From positions 6,859-42,936 of the forward strand of contig PLNP01000025.1 in assembly GCA_003142815.1 (NCBI GenBank): DNA of 36,078 nt, written 5' to 3'. Of the stretch, positions 19,423 to 33,807 are shown piece after piece. Both the position numbers and the translations under genes were made by a program. The notes below the pieces were generated by a model that had not been told where the DNA came from, ran no database searches, and was given only the letters and a program-made list of their open reading frames with translations. Each line of letters opens with the position of its first letter. Position 1 is the first letter of the stretch. Source of the stretch: Rhodanobacteraceae bacterium. Lineage in GTDB: Bacteria > Pseudomonadota > Gammaproteobacteria > Xanthomonadales > Rhodanobacteraceae.

Positions 19423-19436
19423 TTGACCCAGATCAG
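19423..19436. promoter_or_regulatory. FNR/DNR-type box between nnrS and the DUF2249 operon
   Basis: TTGAC-CCAG-ATCAG matches TTGAT-N4-ATCAA at eight of ten positions. It lies in the 155-bp divergent intergenic region. Toward the DUF2249 gene the class II spacing would place transcription start at or next to its ATG (19471). Toward nnrS it would give a leader of about 70 nt. A NO-sensing Dnr-type or O2-sensing FNR-type regulator is expected from the target genes. Confidence 0.6.
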
Positions 19437-19470: not shown

Positions 19471-19761
19471 ATGTCCGACCTGTCCCCGCGTGATTCCGTT
19501 TGCGCCGCCGCGCCTGGCGCGGAGCTGCATGAGCTCGATCTGCGCTGGCTGCCCTGTCCCGAGCCCATGCAGCGCGCGCTGGCCGCTGCCGATGCGCTGG
19601 TAGCGGGGCAGGTGGTGCAGGTGCTCACACCGCTGCTGCCGACGCCGTTGCTTGAAGTGCTGGCGGCGCGCAGCCTGCAGACGCGAGTGTTCATGCTGCC
19701 CAGCGGTGGCGCACGCCTGCTGATCCGTCGGCCCGGTCACGATGACACGGCTGGCGCTTGA
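19471..19761 (+). CDS. DUF2249 domain-containing protein
   Basis: A 96-residue protein whose core from residue 20 (ELDLRWLPCPEPMQRALAAA) to LIRRP matches the DUF2249 pattern. This is a small TusA-like alpha/beta fold frequently encoded beside NnrS and other denitrification genes. The family's function is undefined; a sulfur- or redox-linked role is often supposed. Cys28 in PCPEP stands where TusA has its CP motif. It overlaps the next gene by 20 bp. Confidence 0.8.
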   Translation: MSDLSPRDSVCAAAPGAELHELDLRWLPCPEPMQRALAAADALVAGQVVQVLTPLLPTPLLEVLAARSLQTRVFMLPSGGARLLIRRPGHDDTAGA

Positions 19762-20185
19762 GCAGGCGCCGGCGGCTTCGCTGCCGCGACGCTTCCTGCT
19801 CAGCGCGCCGCTGTGGGGGATGCTCGCCGGCGTACTGCTGATCGTCGATGGCGATGCGCTGCTGCGCACGCGCTGGAATCCGGCCACGTTGCAACTGCAG
19901 ATCGTTGGGTTCCTCCGCTGGATCCAATTGCATCGTCGCTGTGGTCGCGGCGTGCATCTGCCTGGCGTGCAGCGTTTGCTGCCGGAAGCAAATCAGGTCC
20001 ACGTGCTACGGGTGTTCCTCGTATCGGCACTGTTGCTGCCGGCGGCGGTGCTGTGGCCGCGCGCATGGCTGGTGCGCGGCGCCGAGCTGGCGGTATTGTT
20101 GGCCTATGGCGTGCTCTGGTGGGCTCTGCTCGGAGTCCGTCGGCGTGCCGATCGATTTGTCATGACTACCGAGGATCGCGCATGA
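19742..20185 (+). CDS. Small hypothetical membrane protein
   Basis: I do not recognise this 147-residue protein. Three hydrophobic segments are visible: about 18-36 (FLLSAPLWGMLAGVLLIV), about 89-110 (VFLVSALLLPAAVLWPRAW) and about 113-130 (LAVLLAYGVLWWALLGV). The middle (residues 50-88) is basic and less membrane-like than the ends, which could mean local decay or an internal deletion. I found no frame in which it reads better. It overlaps the DUF2249 gene by 20 bp and the next gene by ATGA, so it belongs to a three-gene operon facing the FNR-type box. Confidence 0.6.
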   Translation: MTRLALEQAPAASLPRRFLLSAPLWGMLAGVLLIVDGDALLRTRWNPATLQLQIVGFLRWIQLHRRCGRGVHLPGVQRLLPEANQVHVLRVFLVSALLLPAAVLWPRAWLVRGAELAVLLAYGVLWWALLGVRRRADRFVMTTEDRA

Positions 20186-21084
20186 GGCCCCGTTATTCGT
20201 TCGCGTCCACTGCAGGCAAGACGAGGTTGTCGCGCTGGCGTCAACGTCTAGCGCTGGCCGGTGTGCGCGATGTGATCGATCGCGTCGACGACGGCCTGTT
20301 GCTGCTGGTCGCCGCGCGACGCCGGCTGGTGCGCGTGGTCGTCCCACTCAAGCGCGGCGCCGGCGTGCCACCGCGCGATCCACCGCGCGAGCGCGAGATG
20401 CGCTTGCGCGCGCAGCGGCTGGCGCAGCGGCTGGACGTGCCCGACGCCACCGCTGAGCAGTTACTCGACGTGCTGATCGGCGATGCCTGCCGCCAGCAGG
20501 GCCTGCCGACTGATCTGGATCAAGGCGCCGCCGGCACTGGCACCGGCATGATGGCGCCCATCATGACGATCTTGACGCCATCCGTTTCCGCCGCGCCGCA
20601 CCGGTGGCTGCGCCTGTTGCCGCCGCCACGTCGGCTGGCGCCGTTGCTGCGCGTGTTTCCGTCGCGCTGGCAGACGCAACTGCTGGAGGCCGCGATGGCG
20701 CGTGTGCTGGCCGCACCGTTGCAAAGCGGTGCGCTAGACTTCATGCGCCAGCGCCGGCTCGGCATCGAGGTCGCCGATCTCGGTCTGCGCTGGGTGTTCG
20801 AGCTGCGCGACGAACGCCTGTGTACCAGCGACGAACCCGCAGAGGCGACCGTGCGCGGCAGCGCCACCGACCTGCTACTGCTGGCCAGCCGGCTGGAGGA
20901 TGCCGACACGTTGTTCTTCCAGCGTCGGCTGGTGCTGACCGGCGACACCGAGCTCGGCCTCACTGCGCGCAACCTGCTCGACCGCCTGCCTTGGGAATCG
21001 ATACCGCTGGGCCTGCGCATCGCGCTGAATCGTGGCGCACGCTTCGCGCGAGCCGCGCGTGCCGCGCATTGCGGCGAAAGCTGA
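20182..21084 (+). CDS. Chorismate mutase (AroQ type)-UbiT fusion protein
   Basis: A 300-residue two-domain protein. Residues about 27-105 look like an AroQ-class chorismate mutase. The expected catalytic residues can be aligned with the E. coli enzyme: Arg29, Arg47, Lys57, and Asp66/Arg69/Glu70 in a DxxRE motif. After a linker, residues about 150-280 match the SCP2-like UbiT (YhbT) accessory factor of O2-independent ubiquinone synthesis. The marker segments are ALDFMRQRRLGIEVADLGL, then a strand-rich core, then FFQRRLVLTGDTELGLTARN. The ATG at 20182 overlaps the upstream stop. UbiU and UbiV, the usual partners, are not in the window. The operon faces an FNR/DNR box, fitting an anaerobic role. 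Confidence 0.78.
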   Translation: MRPRYSFASTAGKTRLSRWRQRLALAGVRDVIDRVDDGLLLLVAARRRLVRVVVPLKRGAGVPPRDPPREREMRLRAQRLAQRLDVPDATAEQLLDVLIGDACRQQGLPTDLDQGAAGTGTGMMAPIMTILTPSVSAAPHRWLRLLPPPRRLAPLLRVFPSRWQTQLLEAAMARVLAAPLQSGALDFMRQRRLGIEVADLGLRWVFELRDERLCTSDEPAEATVRGSATDLLLLASRLEDADTLFFQRRLVLTGDTELGLTARNLLDRLPWESIPLGLRIALNRGARFARAARAAHCGES

Positions 21085-21132: not shown

Positions 21133-22158
21133 ATGACTGATATCGACCTCTTGCCCGTGCCCACTTGGCGCGACGAACTCGAACACGAATACGCCGCGCT
21201 CGGCGCGCGCCTCGAACGCCTCGTGCCGTGCCTGGAATGGCCGCTGCACCTGCCGTGGATCGATGCGATCAACAAGCTCAAGAAGCAACGCGGCGCGCTG
21301 ATCATGGCGCACAGTTATCAGTCGCCGGAGATCTTCCACGGCGTCGCCGACGTGACCGGCGATTCGCTCGCGCTGGCGCAGGCCGCAGCCGACTGCGACG
21401 CGGAGCTGATCGTGCTGTGCGGCGTCCACTTCATGGCCGAGACCGCGAAGATCCTCGCGCCGCACCGCACCGTGTTGATCCCCGACCTCGAAGCCGGCTG
21501 CTCGCTGGCCTCCTCGATCACCGCCGACGACGTGCGCGCCCTGCGCGCACAGCATCCGGGCGTGCCGGTGGTCAGCTACGTCAACACGTCGGCTGCGGTG
21601 AAAGCCGAGTCCGATGCCTGCTGCACGTCGGCCAACGCGGTGCAGGTGGTCGAGGCGATGGGTGCGGACAAGGTGATCTTCCTGCCCGATCGCTTCCTCG
21701 GCAGCTACGTCGCCACCCAGACCGAGGTCGAACTGGTGCTGTGGGACGGCCATTGCGAGGTGCATGAGAAGTTCACCGTCGAGCAGGCGCGCCACGCGCG
21801 CGAACGCTTTGACGCCAAGCTGGTGGCGCATCCCGAATGCTCGCCGGAGGTGCTGGCTGAGGTCGACTTCGTCGGTTCGACCAGCGCGATGGGCCGCTGG
21901 CTCGCGAAGGAGAAGCCCGCGCGCGTGGCGCTGATTACCGAATGCTCGCTGGCCGACAACCTGCGCGTGCAATTTCCGGCCATCGAATTCATCAAGCCGT
22001 GCAATCTGTGCCCGCACATGCAGCGGATCACCTTACAGAACATCTACGCCTGCCTGCGCGATCTGAAGCATGAAGTGGATGTGCCTGCCGACATCGCCGC
22101 GCGTGCACGCGCCGCGCTGGCGCGGATGCTCGCGGTGGGTCGGCGCGAAACGGTGTGA
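21133..22158 (+). CDS. nadA: Quinolinate synthase NadA
   Basis: A 341-residue [4Fe-4S] enzyme that condenses iminoaspartate with dihydroxyacetone phosphate to quinolinate in de novo NAD synthesis. Cluster cysteines are seen in VLCGVHFMAETAK, in ACCTSAN and in PCNLCPHMQRITL. Further family motifs are AHSYQSPEI, GDSLALAQ, VSYVNTSAAVKAESD and FLPDRFLGSYVA. The normal partner nadB follows with a TGATG overlap but is decayed, so the iminoaspartate source must lie elsewhere. No FNR box is seen directly upstream. Confidence 0.95.
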   Translation: MTDIDLLPVPTWRDELEHEYAALGARLERLVPCLEWPLHLPWIDAINKLKKQRGALIMAHSYQSPEIFHGVADVTGDSLALAQAAADCDAELIVLCGVHFMAETAKILAPHRTVLIPDLEAGCSLASSITADDVRALRAQHPGVPVVSYVNTSAAVKAESDACCTSANAVQVVEAMGADKVIFLPDRFLGSYVATQTEVELVLWDGHCEVHEKFTVEQARHARERFDAKLVAHPECSPEVLAEVDFVGSTSAMGRWLAKEKPARVALITECSLADNLRVQFPAIEFIKPCNLCPHMQRITLQNIYACLRDLKHEVDVPADIAARARAALARMLAVGRRETV

Positions 22159-22744
22159 TGCGCAATCGCCGGCCGGTCGTGGTGGTCGGCGGCGGCGTGG
22201 CCGGGTTGGTCACGGCGCTTGCCGCCGCGCCGACGCCGGTGCGTCTGCTGTGCCGCACGCATGACGGCAGCGGCACGGCCAGCACGCTGGCGCAGGGCGG
22301 CATCGCCGCCGCGCTCGATCCCGCCGACAGTCCCGCCGAACATGTGCGCGACACGCTGACCGCCGGTGCGCAGCACAACGATGCCGCAATGGTGCGGTGG
22401 CTCTGCGCGGAGGCGCCGGCGGCGATCCGCTGGCTGGCGGCGCAGGGCGTCGTGTTCGACCGCGATGCAACCCGAGGCCGGCGTGCACGCCGCCAGTGCA
22501 CGCTGGACCGAGCGTGGCGTATCGCTGGCCACGGCGGAGCTGTCCGTATTGCGCGAGCTGCTGTGGCAGGGCGGCCGGCCCGGTACGACAGGGCGCGGCA
22601 ATGCGCCGCACGCTGGACGCCGTGGAGGCGTTGGCTGCCGCCGGTTGGCAGGCGCGACTGGCGCGGCAACTGCTGCTGGCCGCCTTGCGGCGCCCGCTCA
22701 GCCTCGGTGCTCATCACCGATGTGATACCGTCGTGCCCGCTTGA
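22158..22744 (+). pseudogene. nadB: L-aspartate oxidase (nadB), internally deleted and frameshifted
   Basis: The first ~107 codons are a good NadB N-terminus: VVVVGGGVAGLVTALAAA (FAD-binding), STLAQGGIAAAL and a helical stretch to WLAAQGVVFDRDA. The frame is then lost. NadB-like C-terminal wording reappears first in a second frame (EAGVHAASARW to ELLWQ). It then appears in a third frame (MRRTLDAVEALAAAGWQARL to LAALRRPLSLGAHHR). The total span is under 600 bp against about 1600 bp for a full gene. Most of the FAD and substrate domain is missing, and at least two frameshifts are needed. It overlaps the nadA stop, showing a former nadA-nadB operon. Confidence 0.85.
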
Positions 22745-22791
22745 GATGCGGCCGCCATTGCGCAACGGGTGCGCGCGTATGACGATGCTGA

Positions 22792-22805
22792 TTGATGCGC
22801 ATCAA
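22792..22805 (+). promoter_or_regulatory. Perfect FNR/DNR-type box upstream of fabA
   Basis: TTGAT-GCGC-ATCAA matches all ten consensus positions. At class II spacing the -10 would be CAGACT (22828-22833), which is weak; CATTAT (22835-22840) is a better hexamer but 7 bp further. The fabA start codons lie 54 and 90 bp downstream of the box. It argues that fabAB is transcribed under low oxygen or NO. Confidence 0.65.
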
Positions 22806-22844
22806 GGCGAGCGCACAGGTGACCACGCAGACTCCATTATCCCA

Positions 22845-22915
22845 ATTGCGGAAACCCCATGCCCCGACCCTCGTCGCCTATTGCAGAAACCCCCATGCCG
22901 CGACCCTCGTCGCTC
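22845..22915 (+). repeat. Tandem duplication of the fabA translation start region
   Basis: Two copies of a 35/36-bp unit (22845-22879 and 22880-22915) differ at about three positions plus one inserted C. Each holds a purine-rich RBS-like stretch, an ATG and the first codons MPRPSS. The duplication stays in frame, so the upstream ATG adds 12 residues to FabA. Confidence 0.85.
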
Positions 22916-23410
22916 AATCATGAGCAGCTGCTCGCCTGCGCCCGTGGCGAACTGTTCGGCCCCGGCAATGCGCGCCTGCCATCGCCACCGATGCTGATGT
23001 TCAACCGCATCACCCGCATCGATGAGCACGGCGGTGCGTTCGGCAAAGGCACGTTGCATGCCGAGTTGGATATCCGCCCGGACCTGTGGTTCTTCGAGTG
23101 CCATTTTGAGGGCGACCCGGTGATGCCCGGCTGCCTCGGGCTGGATGCGATGTGGCAGCTGGCTGGTTTCTTCCTGCCGTGGCTGGGCGAGCCGGGTCGC
23201 GGGCGTGCGCTCGGCGTCGGCCAGGTGAAGTTCAGTGGCCAGGTAACGCCGAGTGCCAAGCTTCTGCGCTACGAAATAGACATCCGTCGCGTGATGCGCG
23301 GCAAGCTCGCGCTGGTGATCGCGGACGGCCGCACCTATGTCGACGACCGCCCGATCTATGTGGCCACCGACCTGCGCGTGGGCCTGTTCCAGTCCACCGA
23401 GGGCTTTTGA
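22895..23410 (+). CDS. fabA: 3-hydroxydecanoyl-ACP dehydratase/isomerase FabA
   Basis: A 171-residue enzyme that dehydrates 3-hydroxydecanoyl-ACP and isomerises the trans-2 to the cis-3 product, the first step of anaerobic unsaturated fatty acid synthesis. From the ATG at 22895 the catalytic residues fall at His70 ([14 protein letters not shown]) and Asp84 (GLDAMWQL), the E. coli numbering. This supports that start. An in-frame ATG at 22859 in the duplicated start region has a slightly better RBS (GGAAA) and would add 12 residues. fabB follows after one base. An FNR-type box lies upstream. Confidence 0.95.
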
Positions 23411-24806: not shown

Positions 24807-24820
24807 TTGATCCCGATCAA
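24807..24820 (-). promoter_or_regulatory. Perfect FNR/DNR-type box with no recognised target gene
   Basis: TTGAT-CCCG-ATCAA matches all ten positions. It lies between the 3' ends of convergent fabB and modC. Read leftward, a -10-like TACAGT (24784-24779) stands exactly 22 nt from the box, the spacing of a class II FNR promoter. Transcription would then start near 24772 and run toward and antisense to fabB. Read rightward, no -10 is seen. Confidence 0.6.
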
Positions 24821-27996: not shown

Positions 27997-29046
27997 TCAG
28001 GCTGGCGATCTCTCATACCAGGCTTTCGACGCATTCACGACCCGTACAACCAGCAGCATCACCGGCACCTCGATCAGTACCCCCACCACGGTGGCCAGCG
28101 CTGCCCCAGAGTGAAAACCGAACAGATTAATTGCGGCTGCTACTGCCAACTCGAAGAAGTTGGATGCCCCAATCAAGGCGGACGGGCAGGCGATGTTGTG
28201 TTTTTCACCGACGGCGCGGTTCAGCCAGTAGGCCAACGCCGAGTTGAAGAATACTTGAATCAAGATCGGTACGGCCAACAGGGCGATCACCAGCGGTTGC
28301 TTCAAGATGGCTTCGCCCTGAAAGGCGAACAGCAGCACGAGGGTTGCCAGCAAGGCGGTGATCGACCACGGGCCGATCTTCGCCATCGCCGCGTCGAATG
28401 CCGCATCTCCTTTCGCCAGCAGCAACTTGCGCCAGAGTTGGGCAAGGATCACCGGAATTACGATGTAAAGCACCACCGACGTGATGAGTGTTGCCCACGG
28501 CACGGTAATAGCCGAGATGCCGAGTAGGAACGCCACCAGCGGCGCGAAGGCCACGACCATGATGCTGTCGTTCAACGCCACCTGCGACAGGGTAAACAGC
28601 GGATCGCCGCCGGTCAGTCGGCTCCACACGAACACCATGGCCGTACAAGGAGCGGCGGCCAGCAGGATCAATCCGGCTATGTAGCTGTCGAGCTGGTCGG
28701 CGGGCAGCATCGGTGCAAACAGATGGCGGATGAACAGCCAGCCGAGGAAGGCCATCGAGAATGGTTTCACCAGCCAGTTCACGAACAGCGTCACACCGAT
28801 CCCGCGCACATGCTGGCGTAATTCACGCAAAGCGGAGAAATCCACTTTCATCAGCATCGGGATGATCATTACCCAGATCAGCAGTCCGACCGGCAGGTTG
28901 ACCTGGGCGACTTCCATGCGGCCGATAGCCTGAAAGACACTTGGCAAGAACTGGCCCAAGGCGATGCCGGTGACGATGCAGAGGAACACCCACACGGTCA
29001 GGTAGCGCTCGAACACGCTCATCGGCACGCCCACCGATTTTTTCAT
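27997..29046 (-). CDS. acr3: Arsenite efflux transporter ACR3
   Basis: A 349-residue membrane protein with about ten helices that exports As(III) using the proton-motive force. The conserved cysteine motif is in LAAAPCTAMVFVWSRLTGGD. Other family marks are NWLVKPFSMAFLGW and ACPSALIGASNFFELAVAAA. The ATG at 29046 (MKKSVGV) is chosen; an in-frame TTG at 29070 would add eight residues. It is the last gene of the minus-strand ars operon. Confidence 0.93.
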   Translation of the reverse strand: MKKSVGVPMSVFERYLTVWVFLCIVTGIALGQFLPSVFQAIGRMEVAQVNLPVGLLIWVMIIPMLMKVDFSALRELRQHVRGIGVTLFVNWLVKPFSMAFLGWLFIRHLFAPMLPADQLDSYIAGLILLAAAPCTAMVFVWSRLTGGDPLFTLSQVALNDSIMVVAFAPLVAFLLGISAITVPWATLITSVVLYIVIPVILAQLWRKLLLAKGDAAFDAAMAKIGPWSITALLATLVLLFAFQGEAILKQPLVIALLAVPILIQVFFNSALAYWLNRAVGEKHNIACPSALIGASNFFELAVAAAINLFGFHSGAALATVVGVLIEVPVMLLVVRVVNASKAWYERSPA

Positions 29047-29086
29047 GGTGACTTCACATTGAGCAGACAAAGCAGTGGTCTCCGGG

Positions 29087-29589
29087 TTATTCGTCGCGTT
29101 GCCGGCCCAGTTCGCCGAGCTTAGTTTGCAGGGACAGGCGGTCGATCTTGTTTATGGGCAGACTGAGAAACAGGCGGATGCGGTTGGCAATTTGCGCTTG
29201 AGTAATACGAAACGCTTTGAACTGCTGATCGTGATCACCTTCAACCGCTGTCGGGTCTGCGAAGCCCCAATGCGCAGTGATGGGCTGGCCGGGCCATGCC
29301 GGGCAAGTCTCGCCGGCGGCCTGGTCAACACCGTAAAGATGAAATCCATCGGCGGCGCGTCGGGCGCAGCGAACTCTGTCCAACTCTTGCTTCGCAAGCC
29401 GCCTATGTCGAAGCGCCGCCCGGCGAGCACTTCCAGCGTCATCGGATGCACTTCGTCGCGCGGATGGCTGCCCGCGCTGTAAGCCTTGAAGCGGTCGCGG
29501 CCAAGATGATTCATCACGACCTCGGCCATGATGCTGCGGGCCGAGTTACTCGTGCAGATGAAAAGTACGTTGTAGATTTTGTCGGCCAT
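29087..29589 (-). pseudogene. arsC: Second arsenate reductase (low-MW phosphatase type), frameshifted
   Basis: The N-terminal half is a good ArsC: the P-loop CTSNSARS (Cys-x5-Arg), YSAGSHPRDEVHPMTLEVL and the SKSW motif, up to MDFIFTV. A single-base deletion near 29326-29332 then shifts the frame. The continuation DQAAGETCPAWPGQPITAHW to the end lies in the adjacent frame. The expected redox Cys of the FTVCDQ motif falls at the lesion. If the base is truly missing, the gene is dead, but the intact arsC at 31772 would compensate. A sequencing error cannot be excluded. Confidence 0.85.
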
Positions 29590-29590
29590 G

Positions 29591-31360
29591 TCAGGCTTCT
29601 TCTGTGATGTGGCCCGTCAGTTCCAGCAGACGATCAACGCCGACCGGTTCTTCTCTCAGGAGTGGAACGACCGCATAGCGCTGGGCGTGGTGGGTGGCTA
29701 CGGCGTCGATTTCGCGCAGCTCGTTGCGCGCACGCTGACGCAGCAAAGGTGAGTGCGGCTGAGCGGCTGCCACGCTGTTATTGATGATCCAAGTCCACGG
29801 CTCGATGGCAGCGCGGCGCAAGTCCGCTTGCAGGTTGGCCGCCTCCAGCACGGGCGTGGTTTCCGCCAACGTCACCAGCAGCACCTTGGTTTGCTTCGGG
29901 TCTTGCAACTGCATCATCGGCGTGACGTAGTGCAAGCCCGTGTTGCCCATCTGGCGCGTGACTTCCCGGTGGTAAGCGCCGGTCGCGTCGAGCAGCAGCA
30001 GGGTATGTCCGGTGGGTGCGGTGTCCATCACCACGAATTTCTTGTCCGCCTCGCGGATGATGCGCGAGAAGGCTTGGAATACGGCGATTTCCTCGGTGCA
30101 AGGTGAGCGCAAATCCTCTTCCAGCAGTGCACGGCCTGCTGCGTCGAGCTGCGCGCCTTTGGTGTCCAGCACATGCTGCCGGTAACGCTCGGTTTCGGCG
30201 TGCGGGTCGATCCGGCTCACGGTGAGGTTGTCCAGCGAGTCATTCAACGTTTCGGTGAGATGGGCAGCCGGGTCGGAGGTGGTGAGGTGTACCGGTAGGC
30301 CACGATGGGCCAGCTCTATGGCCACTGCGGCAGCCAGGGTGGTCTTGCCGACCCCGCCTTTGCCCATCAACATCACGAGGCCATGTCCGTCGGCGGCGAT
30401 GCCATCGACCAGCGCCGAGAGGCTGGGTGCAACGAGGCTGATCGGCTGTTCTTCTCGGGAGACCAACTGCGGGACCGTTTTAGCGAGCAACTGGTGCAGG
30501 GCATCAAGCCCCACCAGATCGAAGGGCTTGAGGGCCACCTGATCGCACGGCAAGGCCTTGAGCACATCGGGAATCGCGGATAAAGCTGCTCGCTCGCGGT
30601 CGCCGATCGCCGCAGCCAGCGCATCCTGTGCCGCTTCGCTGCGGGGCAGCACGCCGTTGATGACGAGATATTGCTGCGACAGGCCAATGGCCGCGAGTTC
30701 TTCATGCGTGCGGGCGGCTTCGCGCAAGGTGGCCTGTTGCGCACGAGCGACCAGAACCAGGCGCGTGCGCCGGGCATCGGCCAAGGCTTCGACGGCGGCC
30801 TTGTACTGGCTGCGCTGCTTTTCCAGACCGGCCAATGGGCTGAGGCAGGACGCGTCGCCCTTGCCTTCTTCCAGAAAACCGCTCCAGGCGCCGGGCAGTT
30901 GCAGCAGTCGGATGGTGTGCCCAGTCGGAGCCGTGTCGAAAATGATGTGATCGTAGTCGGTAGTCAGTGCCGGGTCGGTGAGCAGCGCGGTGAACTCGTC
31001 GAAGGCTGCAATCTCGGTCGTGCAGGCGCCGGAAAGTTGTTCCTCGATGCCTTTGACCACGGTTTCCGGCAGCACGCCACGCACCGGGCCGACGATGCGG
31101 TCGCGGTAGGCCTGTGCCGCAGCCTGCGGATCGATTTCCAACGCAAACAAACGCGGAACGGCAGGAATGGCGCTGATCTGATTGCCGATGCTGACACCAA
31201 ACACCTGCCCCACGTTCGAGGCCGGGTCGGTGCTGACCAGCAGCACGCGCTGACCGGCTTCGGCGAGCTGGATGGCCGTTGCGCAGGCAATCGAAGTTTT
31301 GCCTACACCGCCTTTCCCGGTGAAGAAGAGGAAGCGCGGAGGATGTTCGAGGAATCTCAC
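29591..31360 (-). CDS. arsA: Arsenite-stimulated efflux ATPase ArsA
   Basis: A 589-residue tandem ATPase. Both halves carry the deviant Walker A GKGGVGKT (near residue 15 and near residue 333) and the signal-transduction motif DTAPTGHT. Arsenite-binding cysteines lie in the STEI/CTEEI segments (ACTTEIAAF and PCTEEIAVF). ArsA normally energises ArsB; here it accompanies ACR3, an arrangement also found in other bacteria. It sits between arsD and the frameshifted arsC2 with tight spacing. Confidence 0.95.
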   Translation of the reverse strand: MRFLEHPPRFLFFTGKGGVGKTSIACATAIQLAEAGQRVLLVSTDPASNVGQVFGVSIGNQISAIPAVPRLFALEIDPQAAAQAYRDRIVGPVRGVLPETVVKGIEEQLSGACTTEIAAFDEFTALLTDPALTTDYDHIIFDTAPTGHTIRLLQLPGAWSGFLEEGKGDASCLSPLAGLEKQRSQYKAAVEALADARRTRLVLVARAQQATLREAARTHEELAAIGLSQQYLVINGVLPRSEAAQDALAAAIGDRERAALSAIPDVLKALPCDQVALKPFDLVGLDALHQLLAKTVPQLVSREEQPISLVAPSLSALVDGIAADGHGLVMLMGKGGVGKTTLAAAVAIELAHRGLPVHLTTSDPAAHLTETLNDSLDNLTVSRIDPHAETERYRQHVLDTKGAQLDAAGRALLEEDLRSPCTEEIAVFQAFSRIIREADKKFVVMDTAPTGHTLLLLDATGAYHREVTRQMGNTGLHYVTPMMQLQDPKQTKVLLVTLAETTPVLEAANLQADLRRAAIEPWTWIINNSVAAAQPHSPLLRQRARNELREIDAVATHHAQRYAVVPLLREEPVGVDRLLELTGHITEEA

Positions 31361-31377
31361 GATGGCATCTCCAAGGC

Positions 31378-31740
31378 TCAGCAGCAGCGGCTGCCAGAGC
31401 AGCAGCTATTGGCGGGTTTCGAATCGGCGGCGGCCTGCGCGATATTTGCCCAGCGGGCCAGTTCAGCACGGTTGGGGTAGCGGCCCGTCAAGGCGACTTT
31501 CCCGTCAACGAGAATCAGCGGCAACGCTTCTTGGCCGGAGCGTTCCAAGAATCCCTTCACCGCCGGATTTTCAGCGAAGGCCATCGGTTGCTGGGCCAGA
31601 TTGAAACGCTCAATCTGCGCACCCTTCTGTTTGGCCCAATTCACGTCAGCCGAGAAGCTGACCAAAGCTTGATCGATATCGACACCGCACACACCGGTGC
31701 TGCAACACAGCGCCGGGTCAAACACTTGGATAGTTTTCAT
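31378..31740 (-). CDS. arsD: Arsenic metallochaperone ArsD
   Basis: A 120-residue protein that passes As(III) to ArsA. The conserved vicinal Cys12-Cys13 and Cys18 are seen in DPALCCSTGVCG. A C-terminal Cys-rich tail (SCCSGSRCC) is also present. The order arsD-arsA fits the known partnership. A TCAA-ATA-TTGA inverted repeat lies in the 31-bp gap between arsC and arsD. Confidence 0.94.
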   Translation of the reverse strand: MKTIQVFDPALCCSTGVCGVDIDQALVSFSADVNWAKQKGAQIERFNLAQQPMAFAENPAVKGFLERSGQEALPLILVDGKVALTGRYPNRAELARWANIAQAAADSKPANSCCSGSRCC

Positions 31741-31752
31741 TTGAAATCTCCA

Positions 31753-31763
31753 TCAAATATTGA
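31753..31763 (-). promoter_or_regulatory. Short inverted repeat between arsC and arsD, possible second ArsR site
   Basis: TCAA-ATA-TTGA is a perfect 4-bp inverted repeat in an A/T-rich gap. It resembles the TCAAC-CAAT-GTTGA repeat in the arsR promoter. ArsR proteins bind such A/T-rich palindromes, so an internal operator is possible but unproven. Confidence 0.3.
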
Positions 31764-31771
31764 AATAAGAA

Positions 31772-32251
31772 TCAAGAAAAAAGCGCGCCGATCCGGTCCA
31801 ACTCCGCTTTCAGGCGGGCAGGGTCGTTTTTCAGTTCGGCCGACGGGAGAGCGAAGAAGGCTTCCATCCGAGCGCGCAGAATGCGGTAAGCCGTCATGAA
31901 GGCCGCGTCGATTTCCGCGTCCGTGCCGGTGGCGTGGGCCGGGTCTTCCAGACCCCAGTGGGTGCGCAGCACCGGACCAAGGTAAGCCGGGCAGGTTTCA
32001 CCCGCTGCGCTGGAGCAGACGGTAATGACCACATCGGGGGTCAACGGCAGGTTGTCCCATGGCTTGCTGTGCAAGCCGTCGGTGGAGATGCCTTCACGGG
32101 CCAGCAGTGCGAGTGAGCGCGGATTTACCTGTCCAGTGGACTTGCTGCCAGCACTCATGGCTTTCCAGCCAGCAGGTGCGAGTTGGTTGAAGATGGCTTC
32201 GGCCATGATCGATCGACAGGAGTTGCCAGTGCAGAGAAAGAGGACATTCAT
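31772..32251 (-). CDS. arsC: Arsenate reductase ArsC (low-MW protein tyrosine phosphatase family)
   Basis: A 159-residue enzyme that reduces arsenate to arsenite. The P-loop is LFLCTGNSCRS (Cys-x5-Arg), and MSAGSKSTGQVNPRSLALL, LHSKPWD and VITVCSSAAGETCPAYLG follow, providing the redox cysteines. It is intact, unlike the arsC copy downstream. It starts 3 bp after the arsR stop region, so it is the second gene of the operon. Confidence 0.95.
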   Translation of the reverse strand: MNVLFLCTGNSCRSIMAEAIFNQLAPAGWKAMSAGSKSTGQVNPRSLALLAREGISTDGLHSKPWDNLPLTPDVVITVCSSAAGETCPAYLGPVLRTHWGLEDPAHATGTDAEIDAAFMTAYRILRARMEAFFALPSAELKNDPARLKAELDRIGALFS

Positions 32252-32254
32252 GTT

Positions 32255-32626
32255 TCAGGGCTTCACTTGGGTTGGAGAGATCGGAGGAAGTACAGCATCG
32301 GAGCACTTCGATGCGGCACGCATGTCCGCGCACTGCTCGGGGTGGCCGGAGCAACACTCTTCGGTTAGGTAGGCGATCAAGTCCAGCATCAACGAGATGT
32401 TGGCCCGATAGCGTTGAAAGCGGCCCTCCTGTTCGACCGTGAGCAGGCGGGCTTGTGTCAGAGCCTTCAGATGGAACGAAAGATTGGTTGGTGGCACGTC
32501 GAGGGTCGTGGCGATCGCGCCGGCGACCATGCCTTCCGGACCTTTCTTGACTAGCAGCCGGAACACATCGAGTCGTATGCCTGATGAGAGCGATTCAAAA
32601 GCGGAGATGACGGTATTTTTTTTCAT
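32255..32626 (-). CDS. arsR: Arsenical resistance repressor ArsR
   Basis: A 123-residue winged-helix SmtB/ArsR repressor. The recognition helix region is VPPTNLSFHLKALTQARLL, followed by the wing VEQEGRFQRYRANI. Cysteines in EECCSGHPEQC near the C-terminus probably form the As(III) site, as in ArsR variants with C-terminal sites. The ATG at 32626 (MKKNTVISAF) fits the family; a longer frame from 32740 crosses the promoter. The -10 lies so close that the mRNA may be leaderless. Confidence 0.93.
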   Translation of the reverse strand: MKKNTVISAFESLSSGIRLDVFRLLVKKGPEGMVAGAIATTLDVPPTNLSFHLKALTQARLLTVEQEGRFQRYRANISLMLDLIAYLTEECCSGHPEQCADMRAASKCSDAVLPPISPTQVKP

Positions 32627-32660
32627 AGTATGACTATACAACAAATCAACCAATGTTGAA
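32625..32660 (-). promoter_or_regulatory. arsR promoter with two overlapping palindromic operators
   Basis: On the minus strand a -35 TTCAAC (32660-32655) and -10 TATAGT (32638-32633) are spaced by 16 bp. Two perfect inverted repeats overlie them: TCAAC-CAAT-GTTGA (32646-32659) over the -35 and ATAGT-ATG-ACTAT (32625-32637) over the -10 and start codon. Repression by ArsR at either is expected. The predicted start of transcription coincides with the ATG. Confidence 0.55.
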
Positions 32661-32715
32661 ATAAAACTCGCCATTTTCCTGTGCGGACACAAGGGCCAGG
32701 GTTGGCGATGTCTGA

Positions 32716-32853
32716 GGCTGGCAAGGGCGTGGACGTTCATTGCGTGCGCTGCACGCGGCGCTGATTGGCATCGAGCTGGAGTTGCTACCCGGTCAGCACG
32801 CTGAAATGGCCAATTGCAATACTCCCGAGCAATGGCAGGAGTTGTCCCGATGA
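32716..32853 (+). pseudogene. C-terminal remnant resembling MobA (Mo cofactor guanylyltransferase)
   Basis: An open stretch reads RSLRALHAALIGIELELLPG and ends EMANCNTPEQWQELSR. The NxNTPE-type ending with a helix after it is like the C-terminus of MobA. The rest of the gene is missing; upstream sequence runs into the ars promoter. The stop overlaps the next gene start (ATGA), so they once formed an operon. MobA would fit beside nar genes, since NarG carries bis-MGD. The identification is tentative. Confidence 0.4.
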
Positions 32854-33224: not shown

Positions 33225-33235
33225 TGCGAGCCAGT

Positions 33236-33249
33236 TGATCTGAGTCAAG
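33236..33249 (+). promoter_or_regulatory. FNR-type box upstream of the nar genes
   Basis: TTGAT-CTGA-GTCAA matches nine of ten consensus positions. It stands 145 bp before the narK remnant start. At class II spacing the -10 region is A/T-rich but poor (AATTGA; CAAATT two bases earlier is slightly better). Control by FNR/Anr, probably with a NarL-type factor, is usual for nar operons. No other gene is seen in 33225-33393. Confidence 0.65.
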
Positions 33250-33393
33250 CGGAGATCGGCCGCTGAGGCAAATTGACGCCGGACAAGATACGGGATCTGG
33301 CCGTATGGGATGCTAACGCAACGGTAGCGACGTCGGCCGGAAATGAGTCCGGTCGGTCGCTATAGCGACAGGTTTTCCCTCGAGGAGCGCGTC

Positions 33394-33807
33394 ATGAACG
33401 CCCCAATTGCCAGCTCAATGCGACGTGAAGGTTCCTTCATCCATGAGTGGCACCCGGAGGACCAGGAACGCATAGGTCATCGGATTGACGTCGCGGGGAA
33501 CTGGGTCTTGATCAGCATCGTCCCGGTGATCTTCCGCACGTTGCATGAGCGTCTGTCAGCCAGTGCTGACGAGCCTGGCAAGGTGGCAGTGATGCGCCAG
33601 GCCGGCATCGACTCGGCAGCGCTGATCGGCTTTAGTTCGGCTATCGGCGCCTATGGCGGCTTCTTCATTCCCAAGAGCTACGGTTCCTCCATCACCATGA
33701 CTGGTGGTCCGGAAATGGCGCTGTGCGGCTTCATTGCGTTCTACCTCAGCTGTCTTGTGACCACGTGGTGGTGGTACTTCCAGCGCGGTGCGCAGGCACC
33801 GTGCTGA
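33394..33807 (+). pseudogene. narK: Nitrate/nitrite transporter NarK with a large in-frame internal deletion
   Basis: 137 codons against roughly 450 for NarK. The first ~35 residues resemble a NarK2 N-terminus (SFIHEWHPEDQERIGHRI). The text then jumps at about GNWVLIS to the far C-terminal part: IVPVIFRTLHERL, the AGIDSAALIGFSSAIGAYGG segment and FIPKSYGSSITMTGG. At least two-thirds of the helices, including the nitrate-binding arginine helices, are lost. The frame stays open and the RBS (GAGGAG before ATG 33394) is good, so a short membrane protein may still be made. Confidence 0.8.

Follow-up and report, generated by a model that had tools for sequence, protein, structure and literature searches.

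A chorismate mutase (CM) and UbiT are encoded by one in-frame gene, cm-ubiT, at positions 20182-21084 of the window, a 36,078-nucleotide stretch of genomic DNA from a member of the Rhodanobacteraceae. In the mechanism that is proposed, the CM domain of CM-UbiT would turn chorismate into prephenate at UbiT, which would act as the factor that binds lipid in O2-independent ubiquinone synthesis, and the U32 hydroxylases UbiU-UbiV would thereby be provided with an oxygen donor made specifically for them. Judged from the sequence comparisons, a dedicated prephenate supply tied to UbiT is somewhat probable as the role of CM-UbiT. The long protein would be expressed from an FNR-type promoter before the operon. 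Most species would produce an additional short UbiT from a promoter and an internal ATG within the linker, whereas in one branch the promoter would lie in front of the whole fusion and likely yield the long form only.

Domain organization of CM-UbiT

The gene and its parts are as follows:

20182-21084, + strand: cm-ubiT, CM fused in frame to UbiT; single ORF of 300 aa
20263-20499, + strand: AroQ-type CM domain, residues 28-106, with catalytic residues R29, R46, K57, D66, R69, E70 and Q106; Pfam CM_2, 62 homologues
20500-20613, + strand: linker, residues 107-144, protein and putative promoter DNA at once
20650-20997, + strand: UbiT domain, residues 157-272; NCBIfam NF047962

The original prediction of an AroQ-type domain that precedes a UbiT-like SCP2 domain was confirmed by three profiles, each of which scored above its cut-off with the window protein. 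Pfam CM_2 matched residues 28-106 (43.6 bits, cut-off 27), Pfam SCP2 matched residues 179-267 (51.9 bits, cut-off 21.3), and the UbiT equivalog NF047962 matched residues 157-272 with 130.5 bits compared to a cut-off of 46.9. The AlphaFold2 model of CM-UbiT was poor overall (mean pLDDT 61.4, pTM 0.37, five sequences) and is therefore uninformative on the relative placement of the domains. Foldseek nevertheless recovered both folds from the model: the top match was UbiJ-SCP2 (6h6p), and the E. coli CM 1ecm ranked lower with an E value of 0.04-0.07 that is weak and derives from a poor model. The 1ecm match had a target TM-score of 0.83-0.87, an rmsd of 1.1 and 30% identity.

Operon context

The start ATG of cm-ubiT overlaps the stop codon of the preceding ORF (ATGA), and the gene is therefore read as a member of an operon. 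The putative operon reads as a DUF2249/TusA-like gene, a shortened membrane-protein gene, cm-ubiT and nadA in that order. The features that surround the fusion are:

19423-19436, + strand: site from the FNR-box scan, before the operon; -10 match weak
19471-19761, + strand: DUF2249/TusA-like gene for a small protein, opening the putative operon; 38 bits with Pfam DUF2249 (cut-off 29.5)
19742-20185, + strand: shortened membrane-protein gene, 147 aa, overlapping the start of the fusion; 416 aa in locus L089
21133-22158, + strand: nadA, quinolinate synthase; Pfam NadA 371 bits
22792-22805, + strand: perfect FNR box TTGATGCGCATCAA before fabA, with a -10-like CAGACT at +29.5
22859-23410, + strand: fabA-like gene, identified by reading; its profile was built from itself

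The TusA profile scored below its cut-off for the protein of the first gene. The second gene is a remnant from which most of the middle is missing relative to its counterpart in L089, and Pfam gave no match for its product. The anaerobic placement that had been proposed for the fusion agrees with the frequency of FNR-type boxes: 15 boxes with two mismatches or fewer occur in the window, compared with 6.0 expected from 100 shuffles in which the maximum was 13.

Distribution of the fusion

A full-length fused match was present in 20 of 100 genomes of the nearer set and in 59 of 398 genomes of the order, frequencies on which chance or misassembly was rejected as the source of the fusion. With a profile built from 26 fused proteins, at least three of 369 genomes in a class-wide set and at least four of 398 in a phylum-wide set had a full-length fused match, all from the window's own order; six candidates at most were scored per genome, and rare cases may escape. 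Among the matches listed in these class and phylum searches none lay outside the order, to which the fusion thus appears confined. A search of the literature, mostly open-access, yielded no paper that mentions chorismate mutase together with UbiT, UbiU and UbiV, and for chorismate mutase with SCP2 one unrelated paper.

The comparisons below involve 62 fused loci, all from the same order (Lysobacterales/Xanthomonadales): 60 come from the searched genomes, with L031 as the representative of one of these, and L032 and L034 were added; the named loci belong to a Lysobacter sp., a Lysobacteraceae MAG and an Arenimonas sp. Fourteen loci that were repeats of others or fragments were left out before counting. 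Near-copies are present among the 62, and 41 of the 43 linkers that bear an FNR box (see below) are distinct over 60 bases. Locus L016 was counted as fused, as the genome search spans both domains where tblastn missed the CM part, and L017, a decayed copy with a stop codon, was left out of the fused count.

Conservation of the mutase residues

All seven catalytic residues of AroQ enzymes are present in the window protein. Residues R29, R46, K57, D66, R69, E70 and Q106 align with R11, R28, K39, D48, R51, E52 and Q88 of the E. coli enzyme. The equivalents of the first six are retained in 62 of 62 fused homologues and that of Gln88 in 61, and the survey of homologues revealed no general loss of the active site. 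The original prediction that the catalytic residues are intact thus holds, with one correction: the arginine assigned as Arg47 is one position off, for R46 is kept in 62/62 proteins and R47 in 44/62. The position of E. coli Ser84 is Ala in the window protein and Ala, Gly or Ser in 54, 7 and 1 of the 62 homologues, respectively; this serine was not treated as essential for the AroQ assignment.

The CM part shows the codon pattern of a constrained protein and the linker does not. Between close pairs, differences at codon positions 1, 2 and 3 were 0.18, 0.14 and 0.38 in the CM part and 0.27, 0.29 and 0.31 in the linker. At loci that possess both domains, CM and UbiT were never out of frame, with 20 linker lengths that range from 18 to 47 aa. 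On the strength of the conserved residues, the CM domain of CM-UbiT is likely to be active in catalysis.

Prephenate and the ubiquinone pathway

The genomes that carry the fusion were examined for the remainder of the pathway. Genes of the U32 (UbiU/UbiV) type were detected in all 60 fused genomes tested (20/20 in a first set and 40/40 in a second). In the window's own genome, UbiU and UbiV are encoded on contig C53, as identified with profiles built for this analysis, and FNR-type boxes are located near ubiU on that contig. Among the first 100 genomes, U32 genes were found in 32, four of which (G065, G067, G085 and G089) had no UbiT match. The genome with the decayed fusion copy, G045, has no U32 genes.

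Prephenate is reported to supply the hydroxyl groups in O2-independent ubiquinone synthesis (PMC11574389), and a study of UbiUVT in E. coli names it as a possible oxygen donor (PMC10470549). TrhP, a U32 relative of UbiU/V, is described as requiring prephenate in vivo, and its function as being restored by a CM-only pheA variant (PMC6599085). A CM tied to UbiT alongside UbiU-UbiV is what a prephenate-donor mechanism would favor. Two CM_2 matches were obtained in the window's own genome, CM-UbiT and one PheA-type protein. As the only other CM that was found is of the PheA type, with flux to phenylalanine, a separate prephenate-making activity makes sense. CMs of the PheA type are feedback-inhibited in other bacteria.

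The fusion had also been suggested to gate chorismate between the UbiC route to the ubiquinone ring and prephenate. This idea was rejected: UbiC (PF04345) had no match in the window's own genome, so that the logic of gating fails there, and matches were limited to four of the 61 genomes searched. Instead, a XanB2-type chorismatase (PF21168) is present in 50 of the 61, the own genome among them; XanB2 is described as providing 4-hydroxybenzoate by an alternative route (PMC8854274).

Outside the order, five of 68 ubiT loci have a short CM_2 gene within ~4 kb of ubiT. The 68 were examined out of ~87 UbiT-like rows with E values up to ~1e-19, and the five had drawn notice beforehand; rough arithmetic with two CM genes per 3 Mb gives ~0.4 loci expected by chance. 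The CM profile built in this work included four of the five proteins, and Pfam serves as the independent test. Four of the pairs are divergent with an FNR-type box between the genes, and the fifth is a ubiT-CM-fabA-fabB arrangement with a perfect box upstream. The Gln88 equivalent is absent from all five CM-like proteins (L119-L123) and Asp48 from four. With these residues missing, the five are possibly not typical mutases and may catalyze a different reaction or serve in binding. A CM tree, which is weak with 85 columns, cannot place the five and does not group them with the fused CMs. As assigned by profiles, the loci show a repeated association of AroQ-type proteins with ubiT, which does not imply a shared activity.

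It is conceivable, if unlikely, that the CM domain serves as an additional CM, induced under anaerobic conditions, for Phe and Tyr synthesis and became fused merely through adjacency in an anaerobic operon. Two genomes of the order fit this explanation: G029 (L029/L090) has a lone CM, in which Lys39 is replaced by Arg, and no UbiT or U32 matches, and in G050 CM and ubiT are separate genes ~35 kb apart. In light of these cases, the CM may serve a different function in the operon, and the neighbors nadA and fabA belong to general biosynthesis. The explanation is opposed by the frame that is kept through all 20 linker lengths, by the recurrence of CM-like genes next to ubiT in five more families, where FNR boxes lie between the two genes or upstream of them, and by the fact that the product, prephenate, is the reported oxygen donor of the same pathway.

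A putative FNR-type promoter nested in the linker

The linker of cm-ubiT includes three elements:

20510-20523, + strand: FNR/ANR box CTGATCTGGATCAA in the coding sequence, in the codons of the conserved DLDQ; one mismatch to TTGAT-N4-ATCAA
20547-20552, + strand: -10-like element CATGAT, with A/T at +31.5/+35.5 from the box center; putative promoter
20563-20565, + strand: internal ATG, codon 128, the likely start of a short UbiT, where the unfused ubiT genes of relatives begin

The conserved linker motif DLDQG is an FNR/ANR box at the DNA level. The core NTGAYNNNNRTCAN was present in 43 of the 62 fused linkers and was absent from the flanking domains (0 in 14,322 nt of CM DNA and 0 in 26,064 nt of UbiT DNA). 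Resampling of synonymous codons (500 resamplings) gave 2.4 linker boxes on average and never more than 7, compared to the 43 observed. In a class II FNR-dependent promoter, the box is located ~41.5 bases before the transcription start with the -10 element at fixed spacing. In all 43 boxed linkers, the bases at +31.5 and +35.5 from the box center are A and T, respectively (NANNNT). An ATG is found exactly at +46.5 in 21 of the 41 non-redundant boxed linkers, and the rest have it at a different place in the linker. Synonymous resampling is uninformative on the conservation of the -10-like element, since the two bases concerned occupy first and second codon positions; they fall mostly in Met, Ile, Leu and Val codons, and protein constraint may explain them.

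Unfused ubiT genes of relatives also are preceded by FNR-type boxes (L023, L024, L027, L028 and L085). The same kind of box in both positions suggests that the linker is the former ubiT promoter, now translated. Two genomes, G022 and G337, retain the box, the ATG, UbiT and the U32 genes, and have no detectable CM domain. These losses support the internal promoter; in addition, the fusion is dispensable in these genomes and UbiT can work without CM. The window's own genome encodes two FNR-like regulators with Cys clusters, as identified by reading. The internal promoter is likely to be real.

Among the 19 fused genes without an internal box, nine have an FNR-type box upstream of the whole fusion, and TAGNNT is present at +29.5 in 9/9 of these. 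The spacing of the -10-like element in the linkers is one base longer than the +30.5/+34.5 of these nine upstream promoters. Across the 62 fused genes, six have both boxes and ten have neither. In a UbiT tree with many weak forks, the nine upstream-box genes cluster (two changes versus a shuffled mean of 8.7) and the internal box is spread across the fused part. Three linkers (L020, L079 and L081) have no ATG, GTG or TTG, so that UbiT is expected there only as a fusion; two of the three have an upstream promoter. With a linker box, -10-like element and ATG in most genes and upstream promoters in others, cm-ubiT probably yields both CM-UbiT and short UbiT.

Part of the UbiT may thus be made without the CM domain, given the linker promoters, and a model of channelling is diluted accordingly. 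Short UbiT might even do all of the work, with the long protein as a by-product and CM and UbiT effectively two genes in one frame. The internal box in 43/62 genes and the retention of box and UbiT without CM in G022 and G337 are in keeping with this possibility. It is nonetheless improbable: the linkers of L020, L079 and L081, in genomes with U32 genes, offer no internal start codon, in nine genes the promoter precedes the whole fusion, and an out-of-frame pair of CM and UbiT was not seen at any locus with both. Least probable by a little is that binding of chorismate or prephenate by the CM domain mainly serves to sense ligand, as had been proposed earlier, or to dimerize UbiT; AroQ enzymes are intertwined dimers, and the CM-like proteins beside ubiT elsewhere are without Gln88 and mostly without Asp48, but the fused proteins retain the complete catalytic set, more than binding or dimerization alone would need.

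The dedicated prephenate supply remains the preferred role of CM-UbiT. Its extended form, in which CM-UbiT would be the prephenate-delivery subunit of an anaerobic ubiquinone complex and the nested promoter would set the ratio of CM-UbiT to plain UbiT by oxygen, is a tentative proposal.

Comparison with known systems

CM-UbiT resembles UbiT (YhbT) of E. coli and Pseudomonas, which acts with UbiU-UbiV, in its UbiT domain, its U32 partners and its putative control of the FNR type. It differs from these proteins in the N-terminal CM and in the putative FNR-type promoter within the coding sequence of the fusion; E. coli ubiT is reported to have one aerobic and one Fnr promoter (PMC10470549). A survey across Pseudomonadota describes FNR sites upstream of 1001 of 1566 ubiT genes, the same type of site and the same gene as here (PMC11707229). 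The range given in that survey is 450 bp upstream of annotated starts, and it would not reach a box within a fused ORF whose start is annotated at the CM.

The UbiT-UbiU fusion of Zymomonas mobilis also joins UbiT to another protein of the pathway, as reported (PMC6747719). There the partner is the hydroxylase, whereas in CM-UbiT it is the enzyme whose product is the reported oxygen donor of the hydroxylase. The CM domain is similar to AroQ CMs such as that of E. coli PheA (1ecm) in its CM_2 family, seven catalytic residues and fold match. Unlike PheA, its partner is a lipid-binding factor and neither a prephenate dehydratase nor a dehydrogenase, and Ser84 is replaced by Ala or Gly in 61/62 proteins.

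A natural CM-UbiT fusion is independent, genome-based support for the chemistry in which prephenate is the oxygen donor, and CM-UbiT is a tractable protein for studying donor delivery to U32 hydroxylases. The putative nested promoter, as a regulatory site kept in a protein linker across several families, is the rarer point. The branch in which the promoter has moved before the fusion makes the long and short forms separable by experiment.

Other features of the window

Several further observations were made. At two of the 68 ubiT loci outside the order (L121 and L130), fabA-fabB lie beside ubiT; with fabA located after cm-ubiT and nadA in the window, there may be a recurring tie between anaerobic unsaturated fatty acid synthesis and ubiquinone synthesis. 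A nadB-like ORF (22155-22997) matches a FAD-binding domain over only the first ~130 residues and therefore looks cut short or frameshifted. A perfect FNR palindrome at 24807-24820 is flanked by the 3' ends of fabB and of a molybdate-transporter-like gene, a place at which a promoter is unexpected. From ORF reading, positions 27997-32740 resemble an arsenic-resistance cluster (transporter, ArsA-like ATPase, ArsC-like and ArsR-like). Finally, an FNR-type box with one mismatch (33235-33248) precedes an ORF (33343-33807) that by reading resembles the end of a nitrate transporter gene.
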